A DNA stretch of 38,938 bases from a virus, in IMG/VR virus record IMGVR_UViG_3300047284_000055, positions 1 through 38,938 of that record; one strand, given 5' to 3'. The notes below the pieces were generated by a model. The model was not told the DNA's origin. It worked only from the letters and a program-made list of their open reading frames with translations, and made no database searches. Positions 368-38,812 of this stretch are shown here, in pieces (position 1 is the stretch's first letter; each line of letters starts with the position of its first letter). The position numbers and the translations under genes are program-made.

Positions 368-504
368 ATATACCAAACTGTCCGCAGTGCAGTGCAGCAA
401 AACCTGAAGTTATGCGTTACCGAAAAGGCAGTATGAATAGCACAGTCACACTACGCTGTAGAGTTTGCAGTCACGTATTTACCCGTAAGGAGAAGAACAC
501 ATGA
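364..504 (+). CDS. Small zinc-ribbon protein (46 aa)
   Basis: A 46-residue protein has two Cys pairs, CPQC near residue 6 and CRVC near residue 32, separated by about 20 residues, as in a zinc ribbon. The rest is basic and polar, suggesting nucleic-acid or protein binding. It starts inside the stop of the preceding gene and its TGA overlaps the ATG of the exonuclease gene (ATGA at 501), so it is translationally coupled in the recombination operon. It could be an accessory factor of the exonuclease/annealase pair, which is inference only. Confidence 0.7.
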   Translation: MNIPNCPQCSAAKPEVMRYRKGSMNSTVTLRCRVCSHVFTRKEKNT

Positions 505-1277
505 ACACACAAGAGTACGAACGACAAGAAACAGCAGGACTAGATGAAATGCATGGCGCAAAATATTATGACTACGATAGTAGTTATGAAGCAACAAAAC
601 AACGCTATGAAGAAAGTTTTGCAAATGCTTTGGGTGAATACTTAGGGGTAAACATGATGGATACAAGATTGTTAGAACAAGGTAGTGATGAATGGAAAGC
701 AGCGCGGATAGGTCATGTGTCTGCCAGTAACGCAGCAGCAGTAATGAGCAAAACAAAAGAAGGTAAAGAATCTGCTACGCGCAAAGCATACAAGATCAAA
801 CTGGTAGCAGAACGGTTAACAGGACAAGCGCAGGAAACATATAAGAATGCAGCAATGGAATGGGGTAATGAGCAAGAACCGTATGCGCGTATGGCATATG
901 AAGCAATGCAAAATGTATTGGTAGAAAAAACTGGTTTTTGGAAGCATCCAAATAAAAAATGGATTGGTGTATCACCAGATGGTTTAGTTGGTGACGATGG
1001 TTTGATTGAAATCAAATGTCCGAACACGACTACGCATTTGGAATATATTTGGGATGGTGTAGTTCCTACGGAATATCGAAAGCAAATACAAATGCAGTTA
1101 TGGGTGACGGGCAGACAATGGTGCGATTTTGTAAGTTATGATCCGCGACTGCCAGTAAAGAATCAATTGTTCGTGAAGCGTTGTATGCGTGACGAAGATT
1201 TGATATTGGAAATGGAAAATGAAGTAACAAAATTTTTGGGTGAGATAGAAGCAATCATTGATAAACTAGGAGCGTAA
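501..1277 (+). CDS. YqaJ/lambda-exo-type recombination exonuclease
   Basis: The 258-residue protein matches the YqaJ viral recombinase family, which digests one strand of double-stranded DNA ends 5'-3' to expose single strands for annealing. Family signatures visible: GSDEWKAARIGHVSAS (61-76), an Arg-Ser entry motif; WGNEQEP (121-127) with the first acidic residues; SPDG with catalytic D160; and the metal-binding E170-I-K172 of IEIKCP. The first 55 residues are acidic and Tyr-rich and lie outside the core domain; an alternative start at the ATG of position 654 would remove most of them. AAGGAGAAG before 501 supports the longer form. It would partner the ERF protein and SSB encoded on either side across the circular junction. 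Confidence 0.9.
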   Translation: MNTQEYERQETAGLDEMHGAKYYDYDSSYEATKQRYEESFANALGEYLGVNMMDTRLLEQGSDEWKAARIGHVSASNAAAVMSKTKEGKESATRKAYKIKLVAERLTGQAQETYKNAAMEWGNEQEPYARMAYEAMQNVLVEKTGFWKHPNKKWIGVSPDGLVGDDGLIEIKCPNTTTHLEYIWDGVVPTEYRKQIQMQLWVTGRQWCDFVSYDPRLPVKNQLFVKRCMRDEDLILEMENEVTKFLGEIEAIIDKLGA

Positions 1278-4449: not shown

Positions 4450-4707
4450 ATGCCTAACGCCAGCAGCACACTAATGACGATTTTCCGTGAGTCTAGTGAG
4501 CCTTTAACGATGCATGAATTGTTACCAATGGCTGAATCATTGAAAAAGAATGAAATTTCAATGGCACTTTGTTACCTGCTAAAGCAAGGATATTTGTCAC
4601 GAGAAAAAGTAGAGCGTCGCGGTACTCGCGGACGCAAAGAAATATGGTTGTACACATTTCATGCTGATCGTCAAAAGGAACAACACAATGAACCAAATGC
4701 AAATTGA
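4450..4707 (+). CDS. Winged-helix DNA-binding protein
   Basis: The 85-residue protein has a winged helix-turn-helix pattern: TMHELLPMAESLKKNEISMALCYLLKQGYL forms helices 2-3, and REKVERRGTRGRKEIWLYTF the basic wing. It resembles small phage or MarR-like regulators. I chose the ATG at 4450 because the frame upstream runs through the terminator stem. No separate Shine-Dalgarno site exists; the terminator arm CGGGGGA, six T residues away, may serve. The end overlaps the ParB-like start (4688). It is the best candidate for a transcription regulator in the window and may act on the TAATACT repeats next to its own start. Confidence 0.7.
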   Translation: MPNASSTLMTIFRESSEPLTMHELLPMAESLKKNEISMALCYLLKQGYLSREKVERRGTRGRKEIWLYTFHADRQKEQHNEPNAN

Positions 4708-5293
4708 ATATAAACCTACTGCTGACCTAATACCATACGCAAGAAATAGTAGGACGCATACAGACGCACAAATCAATCAAATTGCTGCGTCTATCCGTGA
4801 ATTTGGTTTCCGTGTGCCAGTGTTAGTAACTGGTGACAACACGATCATTGCCGGTCATGGTCGCGTACTGGCTGCGTTGAAACTTGGTATTGATGAAATA
4901 CCTACAGTAGATGGTAGTGATATGGATGACATACAGCGCAGGATGTACGTCATCGCTGATAACAAAATCGCACTGAATGCAGGATGGGATGAAGAAGTAT
5001 TAATGCTAGAAATTGAAGATTTGCGTAGTCTTGGTGCGGATATTGAATTGCTCGCATTTGATCCTTCAGAAATTAAAAAGAACGACATTGATTATTCAGT
5101 ATTAGATGACCACAACATTGATGACCAAATTGATGACATGGCGAAAGGTGTCCGCAAAGCAATACAAATTGAATTTGAGGTAGATCATTATGACGAAGCA
5201 TTTGAACTGGTGAAGTATTGGCGTGATGAAGGCGCATATGTGGGATACATGATTATGGATTTCCTTCGCAAAGAAAAAGCGAAAGTGCAATGA
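4688..5293 (+). CDS. ParB-like N-terminal domain protein
   Basis: From the ATG at 4688 (AAGGA eight bases upstream) the protein has 201 residues. Residues 8-130 form a ParB/sulfiredoxin-type domain: DLIPYARNSRTHTDAQINQIAASI, FRVPVLVTGDNTIIAGHGRVLAALKLG with the box GHGRVLAA (56-63), and MYVIADNKIALNAGWDEE. In many phages this domain is fused to a DNA methylase; here no methylase follows, and the C-terminus is a 70-residue acidic and aromatic tail. The stop overlaps the glycosyltransferase start (ATGA), so it belongs to the predicted DNA-modification operon. Nuclease, NTPase or targeting activity are all possible for the fold. Confidence 0.82.
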   Translation: MNQMQIEYKPTADLIPYARNSRTHTDAQINQIAASIREFGFRVPVLVTGDNTIIAGHGRVLAALKLGIDEIPTVDGSDMDDIQRRMYVIADNKIALNAGWDEEVLMLEIEDLRSLGADIELLAFDPSEIKKNDIDYSVLDDHNIDDQIDDMAKGVRKAIQIEFEVDHYDEAFELVKYWRDEGAYVGYMIMDFLRKEKAKVQ

Positions 5294-6120
5294 AGGTATT
5301 TACCTTCTTTTATAACCGATTTGAAAACGCTTCAACGTCTATCGCGTTGGAAGCAAACAGCATTCCTCATTATGTGTTGATTCATAAACCAGAAGATCAC
5401 GATAAATTTCGTCGGCATAATACCTGTCGTGGTACAGCAGTAGTAACAAATAATGGCAAAGGATTGGCATACCAGCGGAATAGCGCACTAGACATGATGA
5501 ACACTGGCGAGTGGGCAGTTTTCATGTGCGATGATTTTATGAAAATAAAAAGTATGCCGGAGGAATGGATACTTAGTGGCAATCAAGAATTGCCGATTAA
5601 CTTTGCTAACCAAAATAAATTTAGGCTGAAGGAAAATGGATTTACGCTAAAAAAAATGTTTGCGTTGTTTCCGCGGTTGATAGAACTGGCTGAACGTAAT
5701 CACATTCATTTGGTTGGATTTGGTTTGCACGACAATCCTATGAATCTGCGAAAAAAATTTAATCATCGTGGATTGGCTGATGGACGGTTCTGGTTGGTAA
5801 AAAAAGCAGGATACAAATTTGATACCAACGCGCAGTTAATTGATGATGTGGCGTGGACAGCAGAAAATTTAGTGCGTCACCGAAACGTTCTGGTACTTAA
5901 TTGGTTAGTTCCTTATTTCCAGCGTTATACAGCAGGAGGGTTCGGCAGCACTGCGGAACGTCTGGCTTTGCGTCGTAAAGAATGTGCTTATCTTGCCAAC
6001 AAATACAATCCATTGGTAAAGATCGCTCAGAAACCTGGATGGGAAAGCGGAACTCACATTCGTTTGTTTGGAACTGATAAAAATATCGAAATCGTAAGAA
6101 AGCGGAACGGATTGCTATGA
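5290..6120 (+). CDS. Glycosyltransferase, TET-associated (TAGT) type
   Basis: The 276-residue protein looks like a GT-A-type glycosyltransferase: MKVFTFFYNRF and an IPHYVLIH strand, then NGKGLAYQRNSALD (55-68) and the acidic metal and nucleotide-sugar site FMCDDF (78-83). A second half has GLADGRFWLVKKAGYKFD and DDVAW. This pattern fits the TET/JBP-associated glycosyltransferases described from phage gene neighbourhoods, and it overlaps a TET/JBP-type oxygenase by four bases (6117). The predicted job is transfer of a sugar to hydroxymethylated bases in phage DNA. A glycosyltransferase acting on another acceptor remains possible. There is no signal peptide or membrane segment, so it should be cytoplasmic. 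Confidence 0.72.
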   Translation: MKVFTFFYNRFENASTSIALEANSIPHYVLIHKPEDHDKFRRHNTCRGTAVVTNNGKGLAYQRNSALDMMNTGEWAVFMCDDFMKIKSMPEEWILSGNQELPINFANQNKFRLKENGFTLKKMFALFPRLIELAERNHIHLVGFGLHDNPMNLRKKFNHRGLADGRFWLVKKAGYKFDTNAQLIDDVAWTAENLVRHRNVLVLNWLVPYFQRYTAGGFGSTAERLALRRKECAYLANKYNPLVKIAQKPGWESGTHIRLFGTDKNIEIVRKRNGLL

Positions 6121-6890
6121 AAACATTGGAATTAGTGTTGCAACCGCATAACGTGAAGATTGGCGATGTAACGCCAGACTACGAACCAAATATTACTGAG
6201 GATACGCTTTTTGTGTCCGATGGAGAGGTAGTTGGTTTTTATTTAAAGCAAATTCCTGAAAGCGTACGGAAGTATGTAGAAATAGCAAATGCAGAACTGT
6301 TAAGTGATAGAGTTCCTAAATCAGAAATGCGTAGATCAAGCGGATTACGCAATGAAGAAGCAGAGGTAAGGCAATATTCAACGATTATTGGCTCATGTGC
6401 GCCTAAACCGCATATGAAGCGTCCTTATCCAGCGATTTCTAGTGTCCATAATGTCAAATCAGCGCAAACATTTATCAAAGCGATGCTCCTCGCCTGTCAT
6501 GAGTCCGAGAATCTCATTCGAGAAATCGCGCCATCGGTTTTCGAGCGGCAGGAAAAAATTATCAATGAGAAGGTTCCACCAAAATGGCGATTCGGTAGAT
6601 TGTTCACCAGCAGCATTTCCAATTTCAACATTGCAGCAAACTATCATCGAGACGCAGGGAATCTGGAAGGATGTGCCAATGTCATCATCGCCAAAAAATC
6701 TCACGCTCGGGGAGGTAATACTACGATTCCTGACTATTCCGCTACTGTTGACAGTGCCGATAATTCGATGCTTGTATATCCTGCTTGGAGGAATGTACAT
6801 GGTGTTACGCCAATTGTTCCTTTGCGTGAAGATGGTTATCGCAATTCTTTGGTCTTTTATCCGTTGAAAGCGTTTACCGCGTATGAGTGA
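6117..6890 (+). CDS. TET/JBP-type 2-oxoglutarate Fe(II) dioxygenase
   Basis: The 257-residue protein has the iron-binding pattern of TET/JBP oxygenases: H177-R-D179 in NYHRDAGN, H228 in RNVHGV, and R242 in GYRNSLVFY for 2-oxoglutarate. Between them lie ANVIIAKKSHARGG and ADNSMLVYPAW, matching strands of the double-stranded beta-helix. Phage members oxidise the 5-methyl group of 5-methylcytosine, and JBP members that of thymine. Residues 1-100 are a poorly conserved N-terminal region. It overlaps the glycosyltransferase upstream and the Cys-rich gene downstream by a few bases, so one operon. I see no cytosine-5 methyltransferase gene in the window, so the substrate base is open. Confidence 0.82.
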   Translation: MKTLELVLQPHNVKIGDVTPDYEPNITEDTLFVSDGEVVGFYLKQIPESVRKYVEIANAELLSDRVPKSEMRRSSGLRNEEAEVRQYSTIIGSCAPKPHMKRPYPAISSVHNVKSAQTFIKAMLLACHESENLIREIAPSVFERQEKIINEKVPPKWRFGRLFTSSISNFNIAANYHRDAGNLEGCANVIIAKKSHARGGNTTIPDYSATVDSADNSMLVYPAWRNVHGVTPIVPLREDGYRNSLVFYPLKAFTAYE

Positions 6891-7146
6891 TTGTAAATAT
6901 TGCGAAACTGCAAAGGACAGGATATGCGGAAGTTACAATTTTGGGTGTCACGGATGCCGAGAGCGCGTGTTATTCGATGAGCCATGCAAAATTGTCAGGA
7001 AAGCATTAGCGGCACGAATTATTATTTGGGGTGAAATACCGGATTGGCAGCGTGAACCGTCTTGCGGATGTAAATACAAATGCAAACGAATGGAGGCCAT
7101 TGAAGGCGCGAGAATAGAAACGTCTATTCCGTATAACCGGAGGTAG
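6883..7146 (+). CDS. Cys-rich small phage protein
   Basis: The 87-residue protein has nine Cys: CKYCETAKDRIC at the N-terminus, GCHGCRERVL near residue 20, DEPC, and CGCKYKC near residue 62. The blocks GCHGCRERV, WGEIPDWQREP and CGCKYKCKR recur in small zinc-binding-looking phage proteins of unknown function. It starts eight bases inside the dioxygenase gene and has CCGGAGG of the next gene at its end. Its place in the modification operon may be meaningful or merely positional. Confidence 0.7.
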   Translation: MSDCKYCETAKDRICGSYNFGCHGCRERVLFDEPCKIVRKALAARIIIWGEIPDWQREPSCGCKYKCKRMEAIEGARIETSIPYNRR

Positions 7147-38196: not shown

Positions 38197-38210
38197 CTGG
38201 CAGATGCCAG
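38197..38210. promoter_or_regulatory. Palindromic operator CTGGCA-GA-TGCCAG
   Basis: Six-base arms with a two-base centre form a perfect dyad at the predicted start of the ERF transcript and upstream of the divergent RusA gene. A repressor here would block the ERF promoter and could affect RusA expression. The binding protein is not identified. Confidence 0.5.
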
Positions 38211-38233
38211 TACACACGACACGAAAGGATAGT

Positions 38234-38812
38234 ATGAAAACGTCAGAATCCATAAAACACATTGCACCAGCATTGTTGTCAGCGCAACGCAATATTACTT
38301 TTGCTGCAAAGAATGCTCGCAATCCACACTTCAAAAATCACTACGCCGATTTGCCAGCAGTCATTGATGCGGTCAAGGATGCGCTGAACAATTCCGGCAT
38401 TGTGTTTATTCAAACCGCTACACCAAGCGAAGATGGTCGGCTGCATTTGGTAACGCGCATGATCCATGAAACAGGCGAATGGATTGAAGATACAGCAGTA
38501 TGCTCATTGCAAAAACAAGACGCGCAAGGATTTGGTAGCGCGATGACATATTTGCGTCGCTATTCACTCGCGGCATTTTGTGGTTTGTATCAATCCGATG
38601 ACGATGGAGAGGCAGCAAGGTTTGACACTGAACCGCATATCAAACAATTACGTTCATGCAAAGACATGGATGAATTGAAAAATTTGTGGATGGAAATTTA
38701 CAAGGTGGCGCAGGTGGATAAGCAAGCGTTACGCATTCTGGAAGCGGAAAAAGACAAGCGTAAAAAAGAATTGGAAAGCACAACGCAAGGGGAAAATAAT
38801 GACCACGGATAG
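38234..38812 (+). CDS. ERF-family single-strand annealing protein
   Basis: From the ATG at 38234 (CACGAAAGGA leader) the protein has 192 residues. IAPALLSAQRNITFAAKNAR, HYADLPAVIDAVKDALNNSG and the core GSAMTYLRRYSLAAFCGL with DDDGEAA are the ERF hallmarks. The C-terminus is charged and helical. ERF proteins anneal complementary single strands, here those exposed by the YqaJ exonuclease at 501. The ATG at 38204 in the same frame lies upstream of the ribosome site and is unlikely to be used. The end overlaps the next gene by 14 bases. Confidence 0.92.
   Translation: MKTSESIKHIAPALLSAQRNITFAAKNARNPHFKNHYADLPAVIDAVKDALNNSGIVFIQTATPSEDGRLHLVTRMIHETGEWIEDTAVCSLQKQDAQGFGSAMTYLRRYSLAAFCGLYQSDDDGEAARFDTEPHIKQLRSCKDMDELKNLWMEIYKVAQVDKQALRILEAEKDKRKKELESTTQGENNDHG

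Follow-up and report, generated by a model that had tools for sequence, protein, structure and literature searches.

The virus DNA analysed here (an IMG/VR record of 38,938 nucleotides, hereafter the window) comes from a small phage of freshwater type and encodes a TET/JBP-type oxygenase in an overlapping operon with a ParB-like protein and a glycosyltransferase (GT), and searches of it revealed no cytosine-5 methyltransferase. We think it probable that this TET oxidises thymine and that the GT decorates the product, with the ParB-like protein as a helper and the gene slot beside TET open to replacement. A broader proposal is one that we favour with somewhat less assurance: that TETs of a widespread phage family oxidise thymine in finished DNA, leading to base-J-like glycosylated 5-hydroxymethyluracil (5hmU) or, in members with an FkbM methyltransferase, possibly to O-methylated 5hmU, the swappable slot giving different end products. 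The first-pass annotation considered TET by itself; more is learned from the whole ParB-decorator-TET operon, in which the decorator is the gene that fills the slot.

A TET oxygenase in a three-gene operon

The open reading frame at 6117-6890 (plus strand, ATG start, 257 amino acids) had been annotated as a TET-type oxygenase, and Pfam, PHROG, the predicted fold and invariant motif residues all bear this out: it is a real gene for a TET/JBP 2-oxoglutarate/Fe(II) oxygenase. Its match to Pfam Tet_JBP (PF12851; E 4e-8, 33.1 bits) just misses the gathering score of 34.9, and it matches phrog_6059 at 1.5e-55. Among PDB structures, the AlphaFold2 model (mean pLDDT 95.3) matches human TET2, CcTET, NgTET1 and CMD1 best (E 2e-11 to 1e-8); a PDB sequence search gave nothing beyond one chance match. 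The protein has a single TET-type fold, in which no J-binding domain was seen, with the double-stranded beta-helix, the HxD...H iron triad and the distal arginine of this enzyme class. H177 (nucleotides 6645-6647), D179 (6651-6653), H228 (6798-6800) and R242 (6840-6842) show no variation across a 76-sequence alignment. The third position after the iron-binding Asp, N182 (6660-6662), is Asn in every sequence of the window TET family compared by decorator and Asp in the TETs of Melnitz, P12024L, HTVC112P, Cr30 and DLP_6, and may on alignment be a specificity marker among phage TETs. As a marker for cytosine versus thymine substrates it was dropped, since TET2, a 5-methylcytosine (5mC) enzyme, presumably has Asn at this position too. 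In phage MED4-117, the TET oxygenase (CPWG_00022, 12347-13132) is annotated as a 'queuine tRNA-ribosyltransferase', a label that accompanies phrog_6059 and is repeated in many actinophage records.

TET is the last of three plus-strand genes, after those for the ParB-like protein (4661-5293, 210 amino acids) and the GT (5290-6120, 276 amino acids), with a 4-base overlap at each junction. The ParB-like protein (phrog_620, 5e-49; PF02195, 2e-4) is the constant partner 5' of TET, and neighbour clustering places its homologues next to TET in most related loci. It also matches phrog_498, 'DNA methyltransferase', and was considered as an unrecognised methylase; this was rejected because the match runs through the ParB part alone (profile positions 25-175 of 633). 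A ParB-domain match of this kind probably explains the 'DNA methylase' label of CPWG_00024 in MED4-117 (NC_020857.1, 13830-14471), which consists of a ParB-type domain alone.

The GT occupies the decorator slot. It scores 22.1 bits against PF20691, the TET-Associated Glycosyltransferase (TAGT) family (E 1.7e-4; cut-off 27.5), and a protein of the same homology cluster from a related locus (L272) reaches 51.2 bits; the window GT also matches phrog_842 (5e-7). Its structure model (pLDDT 93.7) has a GT-A fold and matches glycan and protein glycosyltransferases in the PDB, namely TarP and GalNAc-T2 (best E 7e-7). The D81-D82 motif is invariant in alignment A6, and tblastn of the GT against the phage collection returned no matches. 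A small open reading frame (6883-7146, plus strand, 87 amino acids, cluster c76) overlaps the 3' end of TET; a Pfam scan of it gave no matches at E 1, and its homologues lie 3' of TET in a few relatives.

Absence of a cytosine-5 methyltransferase

The first-pass annotation had reported a TET without a phage cytosine-5 methyltransferase and had proposed an HMM search for methyltransferases as a check. PF00145 had no matches in any of the six frames of the window, in a search whose positive control, the methyltransferase of phage Melnitz, was detected. Among the main gene calls of the window, Pfam scans found no DNA methyltransferase of any class, adenine methylases included, and PF00145 was likewise absent from the eight TET-bearing phage isolates tested.

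The window appears near-complete, much as the first reading of it as a whole genome had it, and little sequence can be missing. An exact terminal repeat was not found in it. The genes for a YqaJ exonuclease (501-1277, plus strand; PF09588, 8.5e-34) and an ERF single-strand annealing protein (38204-38812, plus strand; PF04404, 1.9e-22) lie at its opposite ends, yet they are neighbours on contiguous DNA in two relatives (L009 and L010), and many relatives of this phage measure 37.5-41 kb. Given this contiguity and the similar sizes of the relatives, a methyltransferase gene beyond the contig ends is unlikely.

The closest terminase to that of the window, with 71% identity, is found in Methylophilaceae phage P19250A (KX815270.1), which has a circular genome of 38.7 kb. 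P19250A is absent from the TET matches, which suggests that phages of this type carry the modification operon as an accessory module.

A swappable decorator slot

Scans of IMG/VR added 270 further TET loci, all of them encoding TET, and decorators were counted by clustering the neighbours at 278 related loci. An amino acid:DNA transferase (ADDT) lies beside TET at 69 loci, a GT at 63 (the window included) and an FkbM methyltransferase at 105; a few unknown proteins are found in the slot as well. Co-occurrence of any two of ADDT, GT and FkbM at one TET locus was not seen among the 278. In the window's own group, ADDT is accompanied either by a glutamine amidotransferase (GATase) together with a P-loop kinase or by another kinase; in the actinophage-like group, genes for DAO, PALP or an Asp/Asn hydroxylase are frequent companions. 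By Pfam scans the window has neither ADDT nor 5hmU kinase genes, whereas relatives with the same TET have both.

Decorators change between very similar enzymes. Close relatives with ADDT include L090, L015, L025 and L020; the TET of L090 is 77% identical to that of the window, and the same DUF5856 and HNH genes follow downstream. The TETs of L025 and L108 are 93% identical and coupled to ADDT and GT, respectively, and those of L025 and L096 are 96% identical and coupled to ADDT and FkbM. A maximum-likelihood tree of 99 TETs implies at least 42 decorator changes, with at least 19 for ADDT, and a quick tree of 100 TET rows gave 44. On sequence comparison, GT-coupled TETs are no separate lineage. 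The catalytic pocket residues are identical among ADDT-, GT- and FkbM-coupled enzymes, and in 16 ADDT/GT pairs of TETs the differences avoid the pocket: only 97 of the 929 fall in pocket segments, which make up 26% of the length.

The slot can be followed into cultured phages. The window TET is 51.5% identical to those of the Prochlorococcus siphophages MED4-117 and P-HS2, in which the slot holds FkbM, and about 26-30% identical to actinophage TETs, whose gene adjoins a ParB gene near the terminase. Gordonia phage Wooper has an ADDT (PF18724, 1.4e-25) and a P-loop kinase (PF18751, 9e-59) 3' of TET, in Microbacterium phage Kozie TET is followed by ADDT and a DAO oxidoreductase, and the family is also found with ADDT in Rhodococcus phage Tonitrus. 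Hosts of TET-operon phages include Prochlorococcus, Mycobacterium, Gordonia and Microbacterium, and there are freshwater phages as well.

Several further loci deserve mention. The slot proteins of L012 (9045-10004), L072 (4037-4966) and L036 (922-1842) are 306-319 amino acids long, belong to clusters c75, c65 and c111, have no Pfam or PHROG match in any of the three, and are possible candidates for enzymes acting on hydroxymethylated bases. Operons without PF00145 were also seen in HTVC112P (L363, 5045-7267; ParB-TET-FkbM), P12024L (L362, 6125-8390; TET-TAGT-N4/N6 methylase) and Altadena (L366, 3702-7077; ParB-TET-TAGT-glucosaminyl deacetylase).

Thymine as the likely substrate

The ADDT family that takes the slot in relatives also includes gp51 of Pseudomonas phage M6 (1.4e-46), near which lie the M6 5-hmdU kinase (HMUDK) genes. 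A tblastn search with the Wooper ADDT retrieves M6 and PhiW-14, to whose ADDTs it is about 23-27% identical, and both phages make hypermodified thymidines through 5hmdU (PMC6449724). Since the ADDT family is shared with M6 and PhiW-14, the ADDT-coupled TETs very probably, by analogy, deliver 5hmU. PF00303, the thymidylate-synthase homologue that is present in M6 and that we take to be its source of 5hmU, was found in none of the 48 TET records tested, which makes TET the evident 5hmU source there.

ADDT replacing GT in the same slot points to a common hydroxymethyl-pyrimidine product in DNA. A switch from thymine to 5mC at every decorator swap is not credible, and one substrate common to several decorators would be the economical reading of the sequences. 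Some points run counter to thymine. ADDT chemistry on thymine is known from homologues alone, and the TAGT family takes its name from TET systems thought to use 5mC. Furthermore, TAGT-type glycosyltransferases act on cytosine derivatives in T6-type and T-even phages (PMC13390438).

Of the three options raised in the first-pass annotation, thymine, used as JBP uses it, is thus the best supported, and the Pfam scans gave no sign of the unrecognised methylase. The third, in which the host methylates cytosine, the phage TET converts 5mC to 5hmC and the GT glycosylates 5hmC, we regard as unlikely. TET2, NgTET1 and CMD1, all among the best structural matches of the window TET, act on 5mC, the T-even TAGT enzymes work on cytosine derivatives as noted, and PF00145 is present in 27 of 60 Prochlorococcus genomes (strain MED4 is not distinguished among them). 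However, C5 methylation by hosts is patchily distributed and confined to certain sequences while the TET operon is conserved over very different hosts, and host-made 5mC does not explain why close relatives repeatedly combine TETs of the same pocket with thymidine-type ADDT genes.

Phage-made 5mC, from a C5 methyltransferase that lies off the contig, has diverged beyond recognition or was lost, is very improbable for the window, even though phage Melnitz pairs such an enzyme directly with a TET. In Methylophilales phage Melnitz-3 (MZ577098.1, 3257-5441), an HhaI-like C5 methyltransferase lies immediately 5' of an unannotated TET. PF00145 also occurs in 12 of 100 records of the TET family, but the six-frame search is negative in the other 88, as it is in the window and in all eight isolates. 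Where the methylase is found it lies outside the operon, roughly 3-11 kb or more away (distances that partly assume joined contig ends), and it does not correlate with decorator type (2 of 23 ADDT records vs 10 of 77 others, p 0.73). These methyltransferases look like independent accessory genes, and the near-completeness of the window also weighs against a missing one. One relative (L062, 2400-10789; TET identity 69%) may use another modification pathway or a mixed one: a C5 methyltransferase gene lies about 7 kb 5' of its TET, and a CmcI-like O-methyltransferase and two glycosyltransferases can also be recognised. It is improbable, too, that TET acts on another methylated base, on RNA or on nucleotides while the GT works elsewhere, for example on host glycans. 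CcTET also uses N6-methyladenine (PMC12730594), and the GT-A fold resembles glycan and protein glycosyltransferases; but the two genes overlap in an operon with a ParB-like gene, the slot-sharing with ADDT argues for a hydroxymethyl-pyrimidine in DNA, and the Pfam scans found no adenine methylase in the window.

Proposed pathway and significance

Under the thymine reading that we prefer, the three genes would be a DNA-modification operon able to work without a methyltransferase, since thymine already has a 5-methyl group. TET would hydroxylate selected thymines of the phage DNA to 5hmU, and the TAGT-like GT would place a sugar on the new hydroxyl to give a base-J-like glycosyl-oxymethyl-uracil, which probably protects the phage genome against nucleases. 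A role in guiding or tethering the modification enzymes is probable for the ParB-like protein; ParB partners are also frequent, with unknown function, in work on phage cytosine carboxymethylation (PMC12783734). In relatives, ADDT, with a kinase or other tailoring genes, or FkbM would fill the swappable slot.

The first-pass annotation held that each of its options would be new for a small siphophage, which was too strong. A thymine-acting phage TET is not a new idea, since a putative thymidine hypermodification system of TET, aGPT-Pplase2 and 5-hmU kinase has already been described in Tonitrus (PMC11955845), and annotations of such genes are present in actinophage records. What appears to be new, as far as we found, is the mutually exclusive and often-swapped decorator slot, its GT and FkbM branches, and the extension of this pattern to small cyanophage-like and freshwater siphophages. 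The two branches predict base-J-like and possibly O-methylated 5hmU, and we found no literature demonstration of a base-J-like route in any phage. If the model is true, there are at least two groups of phage TETs by substrate, one 5mC-dependent with a methyltransferase partner and one thymine-dependent that needs none, and the latter would be the equivalent of base J synthesis in bacterial viruses. The swapped decorators also provide a natural collection of candidate enzymes for work on 5hmU in DNA. With P-HS2, MED4-117, Wooper, Tonitrus and Nigel available as isolates, the model is open to direct mass spectrometry.

Comparison with known systems

The phage 5mC-hypermodification systems, which combine a C5 methyltransferase, TET and GT, have the TET fold and the TAGT-like family in common with the window, but they carry the phage-encoded methyltransferase that the window lacks. 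The Melnitz TET belongs to a different clade and has an HVDSGD motif where the window TET family has HxDxxN. Thymidine hypermodification in M6 and PhiW-14 passes through a 5hmU intermediate, and its ADDT has homologues in the window's relatives; M6 differs in having the thymidylate-synthase homologue that the 48 TET phage records lack. Kinetoplastid base J synthesis (JBP1/2 and JGT) has the same chemistry as that proposed here from gene content, thymine hydroxylation in DNA and then sugar transfer. However, it is eukaryotic, no J-binding domain was seen in the window, and the relation of the GT to JGT is unproved. Tonitrus and Wooper, with a putative system of ParB, TET, ADDT/aGPT-Pplase2 and 5-hmU kinase, share with the window the TET family (30% and 26-27% identity), the ParB neighbour and the lack of a C5 methyltransferase, but their decorator is ADDT plus kinase where the window has a GT and neither of these. 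MED4-117 and P-HS2 (ParB, FkbM, TET) resemble the window in the order of the three genes, in their place a short way upstream of the terminase, in a genome of 38 kb and in the lack of a C5 methyltransferase, and differ in the slot itself, which holds an FkbM methyltransferase in these phages and a GT in the window.
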